From a bacterium BRH_c32 (GTDB taxonomy: Bacteria > Bacteroidota > Ignavibacteria > Ignavibacteriales > Melioribacteraceae), in NCBI GenBank assembly GCA_001516025.1, contig LOEU01000010.1:24879-88878 (forward strand): 64,000 bases of DNA, read 5' to 3'. Below, one piece after another: positions 21,189 through 36,060 of the stretch. Each line of letters begins with the position of its first letter. The first letter of the stretch is position 1. The translations under genes were made by a program, and so were the position numbers. Below the pieces are notes generated by a model. That model saw nothing but the letters and a program-made list of their open reading frames with translations. It made no database searches and had not been told where the DNA came from.

Positions 21189-24100
21189 TTACTTCAATAG
21201 CATCATCTTCTTTGTAGAAATATAATTTCCCGCAATTATTCGATAGAAATAAACACCTGATGCCAATCGTTCGGTAACTGCATTGAACTTAACTCGATGA
21301 GTTCCGGCATTTTGTGATTCATTAACTAAAGTAATCACTTCACGACCTAAGATATCATATAGCTTCAATGTAACTCGGCTTGCCACAGGGAGCTGATATG
21401 TAATTATCGTTTCAGGATTAAACGGATTAGGATAATTCTGCAGTAAATTAAATTCAGTCGGTAATGCCTCTTCTTCATCTATGGAAGTCGGACGGAAAGA
21501 GATCTTAAATATCTTACCTTCTTTTGTCCCTGCAAAAAGGTCATCTTTATTTGGAGAAGTAACCATTGAACTAACACCGAATCCGCTCATACCAAGCTGC
21601 TGCCATGAAGCACCTTCATCAGTTGTAACGAATACGCCGCTTGTCCATGAACTTGCAAATACTTTATTACTCTTATCGGTTACGAGTGAATAGATATAAT
21701 TCTGTTGGAGAGGGGATTTCTGCCAGTTAGAACCGTTATCGGTAGAAACATAAACTCCGCCGCCATAGCAGGATGCAATCACAGCATTTTCCGAAACTCC
21801 GATTGCCCAGATAGAATTATTTCCGATATTATATTGATACCATCTATCTTCGCCCGCAAATACTTTGAAGATACCGAGACTTCCCGTACCGGCGAATAGA
21901 TTTCCTTTTTTATCGACTGCTAATGCCTGAACTGCTTTATCGGCTAATTCATTATTATATTCGAACCATGAATCGCCATTATCTATCGATTTGAAAACTC
22001 CATAGCCCCACGTGCCGGCATAAAGAATCGAACCATCGGTAGCGATAGCTCTTACTTCCTTCTCTTGTAGTGAAGTTAGTTTCCAAGCAGAACCATCATA
22101 TTTATAAACACCCTTTTCGGTGGCTGCAAAGAGTACGCTATTATGATATACTAATGACCAAACCCAACCGACATTCATATCATCATTAACGCGAGTCCAT
22201 GTTTTGCCGCCATCGATGGATTTGTTGATTTTTCCGCCGACCGTTCCTGCATAAGTGCCGGAATTATCGAAAGCCATGGTAAGAATAATTTCGCCCGAAT
22301 TGAATGATCCGACTTCTTCCCATTGACCGTCTGCTTCGCCTGTACCATTATTCCCGGTATTCGGATTTGCATTGGAATTATTCATAACGAATACCGAGGA
22401 CGAATTATTGTTGCTTGCATTAGGATCGTTTGTAAGCGAGCCTGTAATCGAGGCAATATTTACAATAGTTTTATTCGATGGGATATTTCCATGGAATGGG
22501 AAATAATTAAACTGTCCCTGTCCCACAAGCGATTTACAAATCATCTGTCCGTATTGAACGCCTGATGCAAAATTGATATCAGCAAATGGTGCTAGTACGG
22601 AACCTCTAACTTCTATATTATTAATATCTAACGAAGTTGCTTCATAAAAATTATATAGAATGTTATTGTATGTAGTGCCGTAGATATCAAGTCCGCCGCT
22701 CCAATCCATACCTGTACCGTTTACGTTTACTAAAGCAACAGCACCATTAGGAACGTGAACTTCGAGAGTAAGTGCATCAGATAAATCTTTTCCATCGACC
22801 GTGAATACGTTCAGGTGGGGATCGGTTCCGGTTAATTTTAATGTACTCCAAGCTAATTCGCTTGTTCCTGTTGCCGGATAGCTGCTGAGCTTGGTAGAAA
22901 GGTTTTCGAGATAAGTTTTTGCAGCTGTAAAATTAATCGGATTATCGTTTCTAAGTTCGCCGTCGATTGAAGTTACATAAAGAGGAAGATTAGTAGTATG
23001 TCCATAAACTACATTTCCATTATAAACTCTTCCGCTTGTATAAACTAAATCTCTTCCGACAATTAGAACATCACCGCTATTGGAATTCAATTTATCGCCA
23101 ACGCTGTAATGAGCTAAATTAGCATCGCGACCAACTGCCACTTTCCCTTCGGTATCGGATGATGGTTGATTAAGATCTTGGATTACAAATAAATTATAAT
23201 CTTTCGCATCACCGAGATCGAACGCTGCTCCATTAATCTCTTCGCAATCAGCTTTAATGCTTATTGTAAGAGTTGCCTCTCCTGCAAATGATAGATCATT
23301 AACTTCCCACACTCCGGTAACATTATTGTATTGACCCTGCGAAACGGTATGTGAAAGATAAGTAATCCCTGCGGGGAGCAAGTCCATAACCTTAACTGCC
23401 TTTGAATCACCCGGTCCGAGATTGGTTACCTTTATTGTATAAGTAACATTATCTCCGCATTGCGGATTTGCGATGCTCGAAGTTTTTTCGATCTTAAGAT
23501 CGGCATCTTTCCCCGGTGGTGGAGGACATACTTCAGGAGTCCAAGATATCTTCCCTTGATATTCTTTGTTGAGTTCATTCTTATTGCAATCGAGTACAGA
23601 TACAGTATATTGAATCTCGACACGTGTATCTCCGGATCTTACTCCGGGCCATTTTGCAGTTATCTTAAATTCTTTATCACCGCTTATTTCGATAGTATCT
23701 ATCTTAGATGAATTATCCAGACTTCCATCATTAGGGAATGTCACTTTCCATGAAGTTACTAAATATCCTTTGCTCGGTTTTGGAGTGATTGTAACTTTTC
23801 CATTAATTACAAAATCAACCGGATTATGTTCGCAGACTTCTTTGTTCTTATCAATCTCTAAGGACCATCCATCTGTGCATGGTGTAGAGCAATCAACCAA
23901 AACGGTGGCAGTTGCTTTATCGGTAACATAAGCCGATCCATCAACAGGATGTGCCTCGGCAGTAACTTCATTTATTAAGTCTCCGCAATCGGATTCTTTT
24001 GTAATATATGTTGCCGTAAAGCTTGTCGATTTACCCGGATCGAGTATATCGACATGTTTAATTAAGTAAGGCGATTTCGGATTAATCACTCTATCAAAAA

Positions 24101-26444
24101 TATCAATTCCGCCATGGAACTGAATATCACCACAATTTTCTACTGTAAATGTGTATGTGATTTTTGCTCCCGGCTTTACTGTTTTTACATCAGCAGTTTT
24201 TGTTATTGTAACGCATGTAAAATAAAATCCAAAATCGATTGTTGTATTATTAGCGCAGTTGATTACTACGGTTACTGCTTCATCTTTAGAAGCATCGCTA
24301 TCTAATAAATCATTATTCCCTTTGTTCTTAGGAGAAGAATACCATTTAGTTTTTGTTGTATTAAAGAAAACACCTTCAGCTTCGTAATTGGATTTAGCTA
24401 TTTTTACTTTATAAGAGCCATTGGCGAGATTTGGGAATAGATATTTCCCCGCTTCGTCTGTGGTAGAGGTAGCAATTACTTTATCTCCGGAATATAATTC
24501 TACGAGAACATTTTTAATTCCGGGTTCGCCGCTATCCTGAATGCCATTGACATTTTTATCGTGCCATATAAAATCGCCGATACTGCTTTTGCAATCTTCT
24601 TTATATATACCGGTATCCCAAGTAAGGTCATTTTCGCCCGGACTTAAAGTAGTGCACTCTGTTTTACCGCTTGAAACCTCGGCATCAGAATCTATTTCTT
24701 TATCATCGCCTGCATTTGCAGGGCTAAATAGATATCCTGAAGGGAGTTCAAATTTTACGTAATAATCACCCGGATTAAGATCGACAAATGCATAACCACC
24801 ATTTAAGGTGGTTTCGGTAGATGCAATTAATTCATCTTTACAGTTGAATAGATTTACTTTTACTGCACCGAATCCTGCTTCATTATTATCTTGAATGCCA
24901 TTTTTGTTAGCATCAAGCCAAACGAAATCCCCGATTGATGCTTTTACGTTTACGGCTGCACAAATTAAGAAACCTTTATCGGTTTTTCCGTCATCGAAAT
25001 TTTCATTGATTGCAGTTGCTGCATCGCTGAACTGCGAATAAGTAAAACCATTTAATGCGCCTCCACCAAATGCTGTCTCGGCTAATGCGTAGAATTGGGT
25101 AACGGTTTTACCTGCGAAAGGACCTTTAGCAATTTGTAGATCACCAAGGTCAACTGAATTAGTTCCTATAACTCCTGCTTTATCAAATTCGATATTTAGC
25201 TTAAGAGCCACCATCTGACCTCCGAATACCCCGGCACTTGTTGAAGAAGCATCTGTATAATTCTGAGTAAGTTTCGAAGGTGTTCCTCCTTGTGGAAGAA
25301 AATCTTTTACTTTCGATGAAGAATTTAATTTTAATTTGTACGTACTACCGATAGTTAATCCTGATGGAAATACAGAATCGAAATTTTTATCTCTGATTTT
25401 ACCCGGAGTACCGTTTTTATTGCCCCATCCGCCTTGCGTAAAGGTGGTATATCCTTTGATAACGCAATTAGCCGGTGTAAACCAATTGATTGTGGCAGTA
25501 GATTTTTTCGTTACACCTGATGGAGTGGCAAGAACGAGTTTCTGCCATGTATTTGGCTCAACACTATGGACGTAACGAACACCGGGAGCCAACATAACGC
25601 TTGCCGATGCTGTAATTTCAGATACTATATCGCCGCCTTGAGTTAATTTTATTTCCGGTGTATTACCATTTGCATCTGTTACCAATGATGTTGCCGAAAG
25701 TGTACCATTAGAAACTGATAGTGTAACAGTAATTCCGCTAAGCGGATCGCCATTGGAATTAAATGCCGATACGTAAAATTTTGTGTCACTGCCGGTCGGT
25801 GCATCTTGATTGCCCGGGACAATTAATAAAGTTTCAAATGGCTGATATGATGAATAATTTGCCTCGGCATCGCTAATAATTTGTAGTGCTCTAGTCTTAA
25901 CATTTGTATTATCCACTTTATTAGCATCTACTCCATCCGAAAAATGCCAGAGAGCAACTTGCACCGCCGCTGCTTCTATTTGCGAAGAGGACGCAGAACC
26001 GGTATAAGGATATGCTTTATAAGGGAAATAATTATTTATTACGTAAATAATTTTCGGATCGACTTCTCCATCATCTTTATATGTATGAGGCTGGTCATTG
26101 GTATAATACTTTATATAGTGATGAATATCTATGCAATAAAAGCTTCCTGTATTACCATCCACCTCGCCATAAAAATTTCCTGCTGATGTGCTAATAGTTT
26201 CTGTTGGTTTCTCAGGATTAGGAAACTTTACATTTACTTTTTTATCCTGCCCAAAAATTTTGGCTACTGTTGTGGAATTAGCACCGGTTACGGACATCAT
26301 TCCTGAATTTGAAAAGTAAGATGTAGGAAGTTTTTTCCCATTATTTTCTTTTTCGCCGCCCCTTGCATTCACGTTTATTGAGAATGAAATGAGTAGGAAA
26401 GCAGTTAATAAGGATATGGATAATCGGTAAGACAAGTTATTCAT
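21189..26444 (-). CDS. Giant surface protein: thioester domain, SdrD-B repeats, choice-of-anchor A, beta-propeller, type IX sorting domain
   Basis: A 1751-residue secreted protein. In order: signal peptide (1-28); thioester adhesin domain (about 45-195) with the candidate thioester pair Cys104 (FYCIDIH) and Gln162 (AAVQVALWHF); a Big-1-like Ig fold (203-285); a Thr/Asn-rich region (300-500); two SdrD B repeats (503-613 and 621-742) each starting SIGDF-W and containing NGIQD; a DUF11-like domain (745-850); another Ig-like region (860-975); a second DUF11 domain (980-1350) interrupted at about 1074-1325 by a choice-of-anchor A domain; a BNR/Ycf48-like beta-propeller (1370-1660); and a type IX sorting domain (1672-1751, NLLQNYPNPFNPET). 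The architecture suggests covalent attachment to a surface plus a long stalk. It is alone on its transcript, ending at a strong terminator. Confidence 0.88.
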   Translation of the reverse strand: MNNLSYRLSISLLTAFLLISFSINVNARGGEKENNGKKLPTSYFSNSGMMSVTGANSTTVAKIFGQDKKVNVKFPNPEKPTETISTSAGNFYGEVDGNTGSFYCIDIHHYIKYYTNDQPHTYKDDGEVDPKIIYVINNYFPYKAYPYTGSASSSQIEAAAVQVALWHFSDGVDANKVDNTNVKTRALQIISDAEANYSSYQPFETLLIVPGNQDAPTGSDTKFYVSAFNSNGDPLSGITVTLSVSNGTLSATSLVTDANGNTPEIKLTQGGDIVSEITASASVMLAPGVRYVHSVEPNTWQKLVLATPSGVTKKSTATINWFTPANCVIKGYTTFTQGGWGNKNGTPGKIRDKNFDSVFPSGLTIGSTYKLKLNSSSKVKDFLPQGGTPSKLTQNYTDASSTSAGVFGGQMVALKLNIEFDKAGVIGTNSVDLGDLQIAKGPFAGKTVTQFYALAETAFGGGALNGFTYSQFSDAATAINENFDDGKTDKGFLICAAVNVKASIGDFVWLDANKNGIQDNNEAGFGAVKVNLFNCKDELIASTETTLNGGYAFVDLNPGDYYVKFELPSGYLFSPANAGDDKEIDSDAEVSSGKTECTTLSPGENDLTWDTGIYKEDCKSSIGDFIWHDKNVNGIQDSGEPGIKNVLVELYSGDKVIATSTTDEAGKYLFPNLANGSYKVKIAKSNYEAEGVFFNTTKTKWYSSPKNKGNNDLLDSDASKDEAVTVVINCANNTTIDFGFYFTCVTITKTADVKTVKPGAKITYTFTVENCGDIQFHGGIDIFDRVINPKSPYLIKHVDILDPGKSTSFTATYITKESDCGDLINEVTAEAHPVDGSAYVTDKATATVLVDCSTPCTDGWSLEIDKNKEVCEHNPVDFVINGKVTITPKPSKGYLVTSWKVTFPNDGSLDNSSKIDTIEISGDKEFKITAKWPGVRSGDTRVEIQYTVSVLDCNKNELNKEYQGKISWTPEVCPPPPGKDADLKIEKTSSIANPQCGDNVTYTIKVTNLGPGDSKAVKVMDLLPAGITYLSHTVSQGQYNNVTGVWEVNDLSFAGEATLTISIKADCEEINGAAFDLGDAKDYNLFVIQDLNQPSSDTEGKVAVGRDANLAHYSVGDKLNSNSGDVLIVGRDLVYTSGRVYNGNVVYGHTTNLPLYVTSIDGELRNDNPINFTAAKTYLENLSTKLSSYPATGTSELAWSTLKLTGTDPHLNVFTVDGKDLSDALTLEVHVPNGAVALVNVNGTGMDWSGGLDIYGTTYNNILYNFYEATSLDINNIEVRGSVLAPFADINFASGVQYGQMICKSLVGQGQFNYFPFHGNIPSNKTIVNIASITGSLTNDPNASNNNSSSVFVMNNSNANPNTGNNGTGEADGQWEEVGSFNSGEIILTMAFDNSGTYAGTVGGKINKSIDGGKTWTRVNDDMNVGWVWSLVYHNSVLFAATEKGVYKYDGSAWKLTSLQEKEVRAIATDGSILYAGTWGYGVFKSIDNGDSWFEYNNELADKAVQALAVDKKGNLFAGTGSLGIFKVFAGEDRWYQYNIGNNSIWAIGVSENAVIASCYGGGVYVSTDNGSNWQKSPLQQNYIYSLVTDKSNKVFASSWTSGVFVTTDEGASWQQLGMSGFGVSSMVTSPNKDDLFAGTKEGKIFKISFRPTSIDEEEALPTEFNLLQNYPNPFNPETIITYQLPVASRVTLKLYDILGREVITLVNESQNAGTHRVKFNAVTERLASGVYFYRIIAGNYISTKKMMLLK

Positions 26445-26588: not shown

Positions 26589-27431
26589 TTAATTTTTATA
26601 AAGCAAAATTACGGTTAAAGCACCCGTAAGAAAATTTTGAAAAAATATTTCTACTGCACTCGCAACAACTAAAATAAGCGGCAAACTCAATATTTGCATT
26701 AATAAGGGGACTAAGCCACCTATCCAGAAAAGCATAAGTCCAGTTACCACTATCAGTTTCTTTTTTTCAATATTAATTGAAGAAATAAAAAGTATTACGG
26801 AAAGAACAATTAAAGGTGCTCTTAAGAATTGAAATAGAATAACTGTGGAAGCTGAGGGGATAGTAAGATCAAAAACATGTGAACGATAATATGGTTCGGT
26901 AACTAATTGAAAATTAATGTACCCAAAAATATAATAGAAAATTATGTAGCCGAAACAAACCAACAAAAATTTAATTACAAAACTTTTAGTATCACCGAAA
27001 ACGATCTTTGTATTTAAATGAGTAACAACATTCTTTTTAGAAAATAATTTTACAATCATAAAAGACACGATTATAGAAATAAAAAGCTGTTGAAGCAATA
27101 ATGTGATTAGTGATAGCGGAACAAGAGCGGGGGAAAATATTTTCCCTTCTAAAACTACTGAACCCATATTGAAAAAAATAACCGAAAACCAGATAAAAAA
27201 ATGGCGAATTCTTGAAGTATTAATTAAAGGCGCTAATTGTCCTAAAAAGAAACCTATAAGTGATCCTGAAAGAAAAAGCATAAAAAAAGCATATCTACTT
27301 GCATTATTTTCAGGGATTTCATTCGTGATTAAGGCACTTATCACGCCAATAAATATAATTGTAATTATATAAGTTAATCCAATTACTAAACTTTTGAGGA
27401 TTATTGAGGAATATTTTTTAATTGTATCCAT
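26589..27431 (-). CDS. Polytopic membrane protein of the LytTR operon
   Basis: A 280-residue hydrophobic protein with about eight membrane segments and no recognisable catalytic motif. It follows the LytTR response regulator by 22 bp on the same strand, so it is probably the last gene of the hydrolase-kinase-regulator unit. Membrane proteins encoded next to LytTR systems are often targets or negative partners of the regulator, but nothing in this sequence proves that. I do not recognise the family. The ATG at 27431 is preceded by a weak GGTGA. Confidence 0.6.
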   Translation of the reverse strand: MDTIKKYSSIILKSLVIGLTYIITIIFIGVISALITNEIPENNASRYAFFMLFLSGSLIGFFLGQLAPLINTSRIRHFFIWFSVIFFNMGSVVLEGKIFSPALVPLSLITLLLQQLFISIIVSFMIVKLFSKKNVVTHLNTKIVFGDTKSFVIKFLLVCFGYIIFYYIFGYINFQLVTEPYYRSHVFDLTIPSASTVILFQFLRAPLIVLSVILFISSINIEKKKLIVVTGLMLFWIGGLVPLLMQILSLPLILVVASAVEIFFQNFLTGALTVILLYKN

Positions 27432-27453: not shown

Positions 27454-28158
27454 TTAAAAGCTTAATAATGTTTTTAGTTTTTGAACGTTTCTTCTTGAGA
27501 CGCTTATATCCATATTATTGTTCAAAATTATTTTTAGTGAAGTTCCCATGGATGATTTTATCGATTTTATAGCATTAAGATTTATAATCTGACTTCGATT
27601 TGCACGGAAGAATTGTGCCGGATCAATTCGTTCTTCAATCATGTTAAGCGATTTATAGATTAAAGGTTTATTATCTTCAAAAAATACTTTAGTATAGTTC
27701 CCTTCACTTTCAAACATTATTATCTCATTAATGTTTATTAACCAACACTTTTGGCCATCTTTAATAAAAACGCGTGAAAGTCGTTTCTCAATCGGAATAG
27801 ATTCTTTATCAAAAATCCGTTTTGCTTTTAATATTGCTCTTTCTAATTCTGAAAGCTTAATAGGTTTTAAGAGATAATCGAGGGCATTATAATCGAAGGA
27901 TTTTATTGCATATTGGTCGTAGGCAGTGGTAAAGATCACCAAAGGAACTGAATCGAGCATTTCGAGAAGTTCAAAACCGTTCTTCCCGGGCAGATTAATA
28001 TCTAAGAAAAGGAGATCAATATTTTTGTTATTTAATATAACAAGTGCATCTTTTACATTCGATGCTTCTCCAACAATTGAAATCTCAGGGAAGGATTTTA
28101 GTAATGAAGATAATTCTTCCCGCGCTAAGCGAGAGTCCTCAACTATTAATGCTTTCAT
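27454..28158 (-). CDS. LytTR-family response regulator
   Basis: A 234-residue regulator. The receiver domain (1-120) has acidic residues Glu7-Asp8, the phosphoacceptor Asp53 (LLFLDINLPG), a conserved Thr near 79 and Lys near 101 (LLKPIK). The C-terminal LytTR DNA-binding domain (about 135-232) has the typical FESEGNYTKVFF strand and FFRANRSQIINLNAI region. These regulators bind pairs of short direct repeats about two helical turns apart. Its start overlaps the end of the sensor kinase by 20 bp, giving tight coupling. A candidate binding site lies upstream of the operon at 30703-30732. Confidence 0.92.
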   Translation of the reverse strand: MKALIVEDSRLAREELSSLLKSFPEISIVGEASNVKDALVILNNKNIDLLFLDINLPGKNGFELLEMLDSVPLVIFTTAYDQYAIKSFDYNALDYLLKPIKLSELERAILKAKRIFDKESIPIEKRLSRVFIKDGQKCWLININEIIMFESEGNYTKVFFEDNKPLIYKSLNMIEERIDPAQFFRANRSQIINLNAIKSIKSSMGTSLKIILNNNMDISVSRRNVQKLKTLLSF

Positions 28159-29224
28159 TTTCGTACTCTATCGGTAAAATTAATTTTGCAATTACAGAAT
28201 CATCAATTTGATTAATGCTAAAAGAAGAATTCTCTTTATATAACATATCTATTCGGTTAAGAATATTTTTAATTCCTACTCCTTCGGGATTGGAAGGGTT
28301 TGAAGAATCATAGTTGCCACTATTTATTACAGTTATATTCAATTTGTTTGAAGATTTGGTTACTTCTATTGTTAGTTCTCCACCATCCGGCAGTTTACTG
28401 AGTCCATGCTTTATTGCATTTTCTGCTAATAGCTGAATAATCATTGGCGGTATAAGACAATTTTTAGAATCTTCCGGAATAACAATTTTATAAGATAATC
28501 TGCTTTCCATATGAAGATGTTCGAGTTTTAAATATTCTTCTACAAACTCAATTTCTGAGGAGAGGAGAACTTTTTGATTTTTTGAAGATCTAAGAGAATA
28601 TCGAAGAGTATCAGTAAGCGAACCTATCATTGCTCGTGCTCTTTCTGAATCCTCTCTTATTAAGCTGCGAATATTATTTAATGCATTAAAAAGAAAATGG
28701 GGGTTTAACTGATTTCTTAAATTAAGAAGCTGAGAGGATTGTAAGGAATTAATAAGCTGAAGATTATCAATCTCTTTTTTCTTCATTGAAAAATAATAAA
28801 TCACCAAAAAATAAATGGCAATCCAGAGAAGTATTAAAATATAAGTACTCAGATAATTAAGTATAAATAAGTTCAAAATATTTTTAGTTTCAGTGCCAAG
28901 AATATGCCTGATTATTATTATGCTGCCAATACCAAAAAGTATTAAGAAAAAATTTAAAATAAGAGAGTGGGGGATTAGTACCAAAATTAGTTTTTTAATT
29001 GAGTAATTGTAGATATCAATTTTCCCCCAATAATAACGGAGTAAAGTTGTAAATATAAGACCAAAGATAAACGGAAGAAATGCTAATATAGCTGATTCTA
29101 AATTAGCATTTGATCTGATGAATTGAGTAATAAAATTAATTATGGAGCCAATACTCCAACCGAGAATATTGGCAATCCAAAATCCTTTAGAAGGACTATT
29201 TTTCAAAATCTTTCCTTTATCCAT
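28139..29224 (-). CDS. LytS/YehU-type sensor histidine kinase
   Basis: A 361-residue kinase with four membrane helices in the first 150 residues and no large extracytoplasmic domain, then a short coiled coil and the His_kinase (PF06580) block NQLNPHFLFNALNNI, phosphoacceptor His176. The ATPase domain has an N box (LLAENAIKHGL) and the G box GVGIKNILNRI. It is the cognate kinase of the LytTR regulator next to it. Its start overlaps the end of the upstream hydrolase gene by 22 bp. The absence of a sensing domain suggests it reads the membrane or the neighbouring membrane proteins. Confidence 0.92.
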   Translation of the reverse strand: MDKGKILKNSPSKGFWIANILGWSIGSIINFITQFIRSNANLESAILAFLPFIFGLIFTTLLRYYWGKIDIYNYSIKKLILVLIPHSLILNFFLILFGIGSIIIIRHILGTETKNILNLFILNYLSTYILILLWIAIYFLVIYYFSMKKKEIDNLQLINSLQSSQLLNLRNQLNPHFLFNALNNIRSLIREDSERARAMIGSLTDTLRYSLRSSKNQKVLLSSEIEFVEEYLKLEHLHMESRLSYKIVIPEDSKNCLIPPMIIQLLAENAIKHGLSKLPDGGELTIEVTKSSNKLNITVINSGNYDSSNPSNPEGVGIKNILNRIDMLYKENSSFSINQIDDSVIAKLILPIEYENESINS

Positions 29225-32348: not shown

Positions 32349-32669
32349 TTATTTAGAAAACATTTTGAATAAAATTTCTAGAACTTTGTTTTGTGTATTA
32401 TTATTTAGTGTGGATATCTTTTTTATTAATCTAGCTTTATCAACGGTTCTGATTTGATCTAAAACAATTTGTCCCTGTTTCCCTTCTAATTTACAAGGAA
32501 TGCGGGTAGGATAATTTCTCAATTTCGATGTAATTGGGGCAATGATAACCGTATTAATATTATTATTCATTTCATTTGGAGAGATTATGATACAGGGGCG
32601 AGTTTTTTTAATCTCACTTCCTATTGTAGGGTCTAAATTAACGTAATAAATATCAAAGCGAAAATACAT
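32349..32669 (-). CDS. mazF: MazF/PemK-type toxin (mRNA endoribonuclease)
   Basis: A 106-residue PemK/MazF toxin. The family blocks are present: RFDIYYVNLDPTIGSEIKKTRP at the N-terminus (spaced over the first strand and loop; catalytic Arg in TRP), CIIISPNEMN, VIIAPITSKL (catalytic Thr), and GQIVLDQIRTVDKARL. These enzymes cut mRNA at short sequences and stop growth when freed from MazE. The start codon directly follows the stop of mazE with no gap, as in coupled pairs. No truncation is seen, so it is probably functional. Confidence 0.93.
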   Translation of the reverse strand: MYFRFDIYYVNLDPTIGSEIKKTRPCIIISPNEMNNNINTVIIAPITSKLRNYPTRIPCKLEGKQGQIVLDQIRTVDKARLIKKISTLNNNTQNKVLEILFKMFSK

Positions 32670-32927
32670 TTACCACTCCCACTCGTCGTTTTCCCACTTT
32701 GTTTGTATATTTAAAGAGTTTGAATCAAGCAAAACATCATCTTCCATTCTTCTCATTTCCTGAAAAGCAATATCCCATCCCTCTCTTGGTGTTGAAAAAG
32801 GTTTTATGATAATATTTCCTTCTTTCATTTCGAGTTCTACAATATTTTCAATATTACTACCATCAATAAAAGATTTAGGAATTCTAATACCACGTGAATT
32901 TCCGATTTTTACAATTTTTGTTTTCAT
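32670..32927 (-). CDS. mazE: MazE-type antitoxin (AbrB/SpoVT fold)
   Basis: An 85-residue antitoxin. Residues 1-45 form the swapped-hairpin AbrB fold: MKTKIVKIGNSRGIRIPKSF, then the VELEMKEGNIIIKP strands. The C-terminal 40 residues are acidic and tryptophan-rich, the part that masks MazF. A longer reading frame reaches 32975, but the added residues do not belong to the fold and the promoter palindromes overlap them, so the ATG at 32927 is preferred. It represses its own operon by family precedent; a matching operator lies at 32952-32966. Confidence 0.9.
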   Translation of the reverse strand: MKTKIVKIGNSRGIRIPKSFIDGSNIENIVELEMKEGNIIIKPFSTPREGWDIAFQEMRRMEDDVLLDSNSLNIQTKWENDEWEW

Positions 32928-32951
32928 ATCTAACTTTTTTAATGAAGTAAC

Positions 32952-32966
32952 TACAATGTAATTACA
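32952..32966 (-). promoter_or_regulatory. mazE: Alternating palindrome, candidate MazE/MazEF operator
   Basis: The 15-base string TACA-a-TGTA-at-TACA has a central TGTA that can pair with either flanking TACA, giving overlapping palindromes (TACAATGTA, TGTAATTACA). It lies 25-39 bp upstream of the mazE start. E. coli mazEF carries an 'alternating palindrome' of the same design; the base sequence here is different. Function is inferred from place and form. Confidence 0.55.
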
Positions 32967-33087
32967 AATTTGCAAAATATCAAGAAAATATAAGTCTTAC
33001 ACGTTTTTATTTTACAACTTAATTCACTTTATTTAGTGATTAAAAAACCAGTGAAAGGGAAGAAATTTATTTCTTATTACGGAAAAA

Positions 33088-35254: not shown

Positions 35255-35385
35255 TCGGAATATTTCTCATTGAGGTATTTTTTGCGTGTCTCTTTCAAAT
35301 CAAAATCCTCAGGAAGTTTAATAATCCCGGACAGTTCAAGTACATTAGGGGATATTTCAATATTGTCAACTGATTCTTTCTGGAA
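35251..35385 (-). pseudogene. C-terminal remnant of the PIN toxin's antitoxin
   Basis: The last ~42 codons read KESVDNIEISPNVLELSG then IIKLPEDFDLKE and end KYLNEKYSE. This is the usual C-terminus of the small antitoxins (DUF6364-like) encoded just upstream of PIN_3 toxins in this phylum. The DNA-binding N-terminal half is missing: before about 35385 the sequence belongs to the sorting domain of a different gene. The stop TGA overlaps the PIN start. With the promoter and N-terminus gone the module cannot be regulated normally. Confidence 0.72.
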
Positions 35386-36060
35386 AGCCCCATACCATTA
35401 AACTCAATTTCATAAGAACCGGCAGGTTTATGTTCATTTAGCAGAACAGCAACCTCTTTACCTAAAAGGTCAAAAACCTTTAGAGTTACATTTCCGGAAA
35501 TAGGTAAATTATATCTGATCACCGTGGATGGATTAAATGGATTGGGGTAGTTTTGCATCAATTCAAATTGTGTCGGAATATTGTTTGCTTCTTCTTCAAC
35601 GCCAACAATTGTAATCTTCCCTTTAGAAAAATATACATCTTTATCATCGGAGCGATTGTCTGACCAAACAGAATAAAATGTATCATTGGCATCAGTAGTT
35701 ATTGAAGGATTTTGTGCATTAGCATTTGCACCACTAATAAATACTGTTGTTGGGAAATTGGCACCTTGGTCATTCGATTTGGAACAAAACAAACCATTTT
35801 GTGGAGGGCTAAATTGAGGATAAGCAATATATATTGCCGCTCTTATCAATCAACATATTATTTGGTGAATCAAATTTAACGTTGTCAATTTCGGCATCGG
35901 ATATCTAGTAAGGTGGTTCAAAAGTAGTTCCACCGTTTATAGATTTTGCAAAAAAGTATCCTATTTTATCATTAGGTTTTAGTTTGTAGAAAGAAATATA
36001 AACATTGCTGCCATAGACAGCGATTGATGCAAATATTCCATCAGCAGATACTGTTACTTG
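35386..36060 (-). pseudogene. Broken beta-propeller (BNR-like) type IX cargo gene
   Basis: Remnant of a secreted protein. From about 36060 one frame reads SADGIFASIAVYGSNVYISF and FFAKSINGGTTFEPPY, stops at a TAG (35905-35907), and resumes as ISDAEIDNVKFDSP to SGNIY. Then an (AT)n run at 35826-35835 appears to have lost two bases, and the other frame carries on with IAYPQFSPPQNGLFCSKSNDQG and two more propeller-like units (NAQNPSITTDANDTFYSVWSDNRS). It ends inside a type IX sorting domain (LMQNYPNPFNPST) cut off at FNGMGLS, where the antitoxin remnant begins. The 5' end is also missing. At least four lesions show long-standing decay. Confidence 0.78.

Follow-up and report, generated by a model that had tools for sequence, protein, structure and literature searches.

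An N-terminal thioester-family domain with a predicted class II layout in a protein bearing a type IX sorting signal, from the Ignavibacteria bacterium BRH_c32

The window analysed here, a stretch of 64,000 nucleotides of contig LOEU01000010.1 from bacterium BRH_c32 (Bacteroidota; Ignavibacteria; Melioribacteraceae), codes on its minus strand for a protein of 1751 residues (Table 1) whose N-terminal domain belongs to the thioester domain (TED) family and is predicted to have the layout of class II TEDs. The reading that we favour, with a probability of about three in four, is that Cys104 and Gln301 of this domain form a thioester that attacks an amine of the target, while a type IX sorting signal fixes the protein to the outer membrane of its own cell. 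A first-pass annotation had placed a domain of thioester type N-terminally in a type IX-secreted protein of an Ignavibacteria-like cell, and this view is supported by the family match, the predicted fold, the genome and the taxonomy. The interval that it cited (25860-26312) covers residues 45-195 of the open reading frame (ORF) and its three motifs are found there: FYCID at residues 102-106 with Cys104, NNYFPYK at 137-143 and VQVALWHF at 161-168 with Gln162. As in that annotation, the covalent reactivity of the domain is something that we infer.

With Pfam model PF08341 (TED), residues 103-194 score 43.8 bits against a cut-off of 22 (E 3.6e-11); all 39 sequences of the alignment described below also match it at E<=0.001. 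The [YFL]C-Phi-zeta motif is present as Y103-C104-I105-D106, and the helical TQxxPhiW motif as VQVALW, in which Q, Phi and W are retained and T is replaced by V. The domain had been delimited to residues ~45-195; it is indeed located there but its end had been set too early, as the fold predicted by AlphaFold2 extends to about residue 322 (window position 25479). Two traits of class II TEDs are found in this model. There is no helix alpha0 between strand D and helix alpha1, strand 85-90 coming directly before helix 93-101, and a beta-sandwich separates helix alpha3 from strand P, from which the hairpin P-Q returns to the upper lobe in a slipknot.

The solved class II TEDs BaTIE (6fwv), EfmTIE86 (6fwy) and SaTIE (6fx6; PMC6194298) share with the modelled domain the cysteine on strand C, the three-helix lobe with QxxPhiW, the immunoglobulin (Ig)-type insert between alpha3 and strand P, and the glutamine on the returning strand Q. 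They have also a similar Cys-Gln spacing and are likewise placed at the N-terminus, above a stalk that has cross-link residues. The protein studied here differs by the Big_1/intimin type of its insert (Pfam Big_1 at 218-281, 28.5 bits, under the cut-off of 34.9), by the short A-B loop in the model, by its type IX tail and by its Gram-negative host. Class I TEDs (SfbI, CpTIE, Cpa; PMC4450167) differ in that they lack the Ig insert, are sortase anchored and have targets in animal hosts.

Several observations weigh against this assignment. The NCBIfam TQXA model TIGR03934 scores 17.1 bits, under its cut-off of 30.4, which leaves the TQXA match proposed earlier unconfirmed. The A-B loop has 7 residues in the model while that of class II TEDs is described as extended by ~15, a comparison made without residue-by-residue superposition. 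Over whole class II TEDs the root mean square deviation of the structural alignments is high (6.5-7.8 A), which means that either the two lobes stand at another angle to each other or this part of the model is unreliable. Ig proteins with no relation to TEDs equal class I TEDs in structural score (phage Chi neck protein 12.4, invasin 12.1); they score high because the Ig insert matches them, and these matches span mostly residues ~164-287 with 90-100 residues aligned, while the class I TED matches span 19-276. An hhalign comparison to the class II adhesin of Bacillus subtilis plasmid pLS20 aligned only YCID with a probability of 0.4 out of 100, a result obtained with a single sequence in a class whose TEDs diverge.

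Structural alignments to class II TEDs give only 11-13% identity. Searches of the PDB by sequence yielded one irrelevant match with the TED alone. With the alignment profile the Ig domains of intimin/invasin led the matches, and two TED chains reached no better than E 0.11 and 0.13. A Chloroflexota relative (L136) matched one TED chain (E 0.54), and the pLS20 TIE (thioester, isopeptide, ester) adhesin matched nothing. PnTIE is absent among the structure matches listed, which by itself is uninformative. A chance match to the family was rejected on account of the 43.8-bit TED score, the presence of the domain in 33 of the 395 genomes sampled from the phylum and the invariance of its key residues.

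This invariance was assessed in an alignment of 39 of the 41 TED matches found in the phylum sample, translated from DNA and including the sequence of the window, to which the others are 28-60% identical. The two left out are a match at a contig end (L016 of genome G062), which also features the cysteine and, 192 residues further on, the motif QKLVLATP, and a 228-residue protein that ends soon after the helices (L068 of genome G165). Only 13 of 216 gap-free columns are invariant, and they include Cys104, Gln162, Trp166 and Gln301 (39/39 each). The proposal that Cys104 is the reactive cysteine gains support from its invariance and from its position at the end of strand C in the model. Named genome records keep the cysteine and the glutamine in 80 of 80 loci, a set that overlaps with the alignment and is not independent of it: 74 fit a strict pattern with a spacing of 189-205 residues, five have one or two altered neighbours and one (L139) was assigned by eye. 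All three residues are found in 89 of 92 database proteins; of the exceptions, P0042 has no TED, P0090 is cut before the cysteine and P0088 has a lysine replacing Gln301.

P0088 keeps its cysteine, and its close relative P0086 retains the glutamine. The lysine of P0088, found in one protein of 92, counts against an active thioester. This natural variant fits the possibility that the TED fold persists here with a thioester that is no longer formed or is shielded, the domain acting as a non-covalent binding head or as a spacer. The deep pore in which class II thioesters sit according to their structural description (PMC6194298) could be read in the same way, as could the statement in that account that an earlier report of collagen binding by a class II protein did not find confirmation, which leaves the protein with no known target. 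We hold this alternative to be unlikely, a dead site being expected to drift while here both residues are invariant amid a variable domain.

The protein has, from the N- to the C-terminus, Pfam matches to TED, Big_1, SdrD_B (two stretches), DUF7507, DUF11 (three stretches), pAdhesive_15 and the type IX tail. The association of a TED with isopeptide or ester domains that characterizes TIE proteins is found in its domains and residues, with Lys987, Asp1021 and Asn1329 of a CLIPPER (DUF11) domain that matches 9ifr in sequence and fold. An ice-binding-like choice-of-anchor A domain, called also by NCBIfam, is predicted to be inserted within this CLIPPER domain (residues 982-1353, window 22386-23501). 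The lysine and the asparagine are thus 342 residues apart, yet they are invariant in 67 of 67 sequences (the window and 66 of 79 candidate slices; six were excluded as cut at the locus end, three as near-duplicates and four for low identity). The 13 excluded slices also have Lys, Asp and Asn at the triad positions. Leaving out the insert, the separation of Lys987 and Asn1329 is ~98 residues versus 91 in 9ifr. The stalk resembles the CLIPPER domains of 9ifr, from a Gram-negative fibrillar adhesin with an isopeptide-type lysine and asparagine and a catalytic acid (PMC12617251), and differs from them in being split by the ice-binding-like domain. The same publication mentions isopeptide domains beside Por_Secre_tail.

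The SdrD_B and CLIPPER domains would form a stiff stalk, at least one of them with a conserved isopeptide-type triad. The retention of this triad in the same protein accords with the idea that the internal bond of the TED is mainly a mechanical clasp or folding staple in a surface fibre, which shares with the favoured reading that the bond forms and differs from it in giving the bond no role in attachment. We consider this clasp reading improbable: Walden and colleagues (PMC4450167) describe the CpTIE structure as essentially unaltered by thioester removal, and the TED is located at the end of the chain opposite to the sorting tail.

The partner of Cys104 is most likely Gln301. According to Walden and colleagues (PMC4450167) the thioester residues are the cysteine of [YFL]C-Phi-zeta and the glutamine of a separate strand motif, PhiQzetaPhiPhi. 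Such a motif is present as W300-Q301-K302-L303-V304, with Gln301 located 197 residues after Cys104. The Cys-Gln pairs given for solved class I TEDs are 109-261, 94-247 and 138-267 (PMC4450167), and those given by Miller and colleagues for class II are 71-266, 296-467 and 88-292 (PMC6194298). Counting back from the ends of the structural alignments, SfbI Gln261 and CpTIE Gln267 (5a0g) map to Gln301; the count leads to Gln301 for 5a0g and 5a0l and to the next residue for 5a0d, an offset that speaks against the correspondence.

In the first-pass annotation the partner of Cys104 was instead Gln162, within a short and compact domain (residues 45-195). Gln162 is equally invariant and is expected near Cys104 in the fold, but it lies 58 residues after the cysteine, a spacing that matches none of these solved pairs. 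In solved TEDs the glutamine of helix alpha2 is described as standing beside the thioester and merely hydrogen-bonding the cysteine backbone (PMC6194298, PMC4450167), and in the Cpa TED neither the glutamine nor the tryptophan of the TQxxPhiW helix is reported as needed for thioester formation (PMC4450167). As the solved TEDs of these two accounts use the strand glutamine, and as a second invariant glutamine occupies the expected spacing and strand, Gln162 was rejected as partner and its pairing with Cys104 is given hardly any credence. The proximity of Cys104 and Gln162 that had been suggested as a test would mislead, since Gln162 should lie near Cys104 without being its partner. It is just as improbable that Cys104 is an ordinary surface-protein cysteine, in a metal site or a disulfide, of a domain that merely resembles a TED: additional cysteines occur in five of the 39 aligned domains, while Cys104 is the sole one in the other 34, and family score and fold match both indicate a TED.

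The type IX tail at residues 1671-1748 scores 45.6 bits with TIGR04183 (cut-off 23), which identifies a type A sorting domain, and is one of 102 such matches in the genome. Among the machinery components searched, SprA (SprA_N), PorU (965 bits) and a PorV family protein (318 bits) are encoded. The genome assembly (3.49 Mb, 94% complete) has no match to the sortase family, while three Gram-positive control genomes did match. In place of the sortase (LPXTG) anchoring of TIE proteins the protein has a type IX tail, as had been proposed. A second TED match in this genome lies in a 1400-residue frame of another contig (C36, 113000-124000, L032); a type IX tail found on the same strand in a frame of equal length apparently belongs to this second TED protein.

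In the mechanism that we favour, the Cys104-Gln301 thioester would be made before the protein reaches the surface. The chain would be exported via Sec, to judge from a signal peptide recognized by eye, and would then fold in the periplasm. There, by analogy to solved TEDs, Cys104 on strand C and Gln301 on strand Q would meet beside helix alpha2, with its Gln162 and Trp166, and ammonia would be lost. The machinery genes suggest that SprA, PorV and PorU would move the chain outward. PorU would likely replace the tail by a lipopolysaccharide anchor, playing the role of sortase in Gram-positive cells; in Porphyromonas it is described as having signal peptidase activity and as transferring some cargoes to lipopolysaccharide by transpeptidation (PMC11285876). 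On meeting a suitable lysine-type amine, the thioester would be converted to an amide bond; attachment would then be irreversible, and the adhesin would likely bind its cell to the target for good. Our guess is that this target is other cells or the biofilm matrix. Such contacts are plausible because a class II TED is reported to be needed for efficient conjugation in Bacillus (PMC8092201).

The TED was found in 33 of the 395 genomes sampled from the phylum: 23 of 26 in the same family, 8 of 14 in the remainder of the order, and only 2 of the 355 that belong elsewhere. These counts assume that the genomes listed without a match follow one another by kinship, which seems to be the case. No TED match was found in 14 control genomes, which revealed no false positives and included no positive control. 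Of two similar proteins (Table 1), the 89% identical one is labelled Melioribacteraceae, and the relatives in named records are mostly Stygiobacter, Melioribacter, Ignavibacterium or other Ignavibacteria, for which reason the label Ignavibacteria-like was right. Among relatives of the window protein 39 of 41 TED proteins have the type IX tail; the two without it are shorter and one of them is labelled partial. In a second set, started from a short Chloroflexota protein, only 23 of 49 TED proteins have the tail, which weighs against the favoured reading; the length window of this set favours short proteins and fragments. On the contig of locus L043, to which the Stygiobacter record of L071 and L135 also belongs, two TED genes lie ~9.7 kb apart on one strand. 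The 228-residue TED-like protein L068, from elsewhere in the phylum, is too short for an Ig insert; its tail is presumably PEP-CTERM-like.

Proteins P0043-P0045 from Chloroflexota metagenome-assembled genomes have the same TED with the Big_1 insert and the glutamine strand, and differ by a hydrophobic C-terminal tail that replaces the type IX signal. Over the region, P0044 shares 57% and P0045 47% of its residues with P0043 (the same as L136). These proteins also match PF20009, which we take to be GEVED. The sharing of the TED between phyla that differ in the anchor hints at transfer of the harpoon module. Some of the Ignavibacteria and Chloroflexota relatives carry the automatic NCBI name "Cys-Gln thioester bond-forming surface protein".

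Each of the components is already known: TEDs, class II slipknots, CLIPPER domains and type IX tails. The 2015 survey presents TEDs as widespread but exclusively Gram-positive (PMC4450167), and no paper on the combination of these components was found in the open-licence PMC literature, where the TED papers found appear to deal with Gram-positive proteins. The pLS20 adhesin (PMC8092201) resembles the present protein in carrying a class II TED in a non-pathogen and differs in belonging to a plasmid conjugation system of a Gram-positive host. We are inclined to think that a Gram-negative order has a complete covalent adhesin of its own, with a class II harpoon, an isopeptide-stapled stalk bearing an adhesive domain and a PorU-made weld to the outer membrane, which would tie the cell covalently both to itself and to its target and would be shared by nearly all members of the family instead of being the tool of a pathogen. 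Should the thioester form, covalent adhesion can pass between two unrelated systems of export and anchoring, harpoons would serve free-living microbes and not solely pathogens and plasmids, and the survival of a reactive thioester through type IX export becomes testable. The residues to mutate are Cys104 and Gln301, with Gln162 as control.

Table 1. Features of the TED protein, with positions in the window.
Feature	Position	Strand	Basis or remark
ORF of the TED protein, 1751 codons	21189..26444	-	ORF list; relatives of 96% and 89% identity across residues 55-330
Putative N-terminal signal peptide, residues 1-27	26364..26444	-	by eye, no program: hydrophobic stretch, then NVNA
Class II-like TED, residues 60-322 (barrel, three helices, Ig insert, returning hairpin)	25479..26267	-	AlphaFold2 model; Pfam TED at 103-194
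Cys104 of FYCID, predicted thioester cysteine at the end of strand 3	26133..26135	-	39/39 aligned; strand from model
Helix alpha2, residues 154-170, QxxPhiW motif (Gln162, Trp166)	25935..25985	-	alignment and model; Gln162 codon 25959-25961
Ig-like insert, residues 201-284 (Big_1/intimin type)	25593..25844	-	
Returning strands P and Q, residues 289-305	25530..25580	-	AlphaFold2 model and structural alignments
Gln301, predicted thioester glutamine (W-QKLVLATP)	25542..25544	-	39/39 aligned; 80/80 named loci
First SdrD_B stalk domain, residues 502-613	24606..24941	-	Pfam; second SdrD_B stretch counted, location not given
DUF7507 (CLIPPER_2) stalk domain, residues 745-838, candidate Lys749/Asp784/Asn825	23931..24212	-	Pfam; conservation
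DUF11 (CLIPPER) first half, residues 982-1067, Lys987 and Asp1021	23244..23501	-	Pfam, conservation, fold match
Choice-of-anchor A/pAdhesive_15, residues 1077-1314, predicted ice-binding-like fold inside the CLIPPER domain	22503..23216	-	Pfam, NCBIfam, model
CLIPPER second half, residues 1326-1353, Asn1329	22386..22469	-	conservation, model
C-terminal sorting domain for type IX secretion, residues 1671-1748	21201..21434	-	Pfam, NCBIfam

The segment that follows the TED (residues ~325-495, window 24960-25472) has no Pfam match and features a pattern, TxTQGGWG..PGxxRDxxF..VFPxGL, that recurs in many relatives. Upstream of the TED gene and on the same strand are genes for a LytTR response regulator and a histidine kinase (27454-29224), which may regulate it, and between them and the TED gene lies the gene of an unassigned hydrophobic protein (26589-27431). 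The short ORF at 35295-35849 has a type IX tail cut down to positions 2-35 of 72 and is perhaps the remnant of a decayed secreted protein. Two neighbouring small ORFs at 32349-32975 presumably code for a MazF-type toxin and an AbrB-type antitoxin, whose motifs they resemble.
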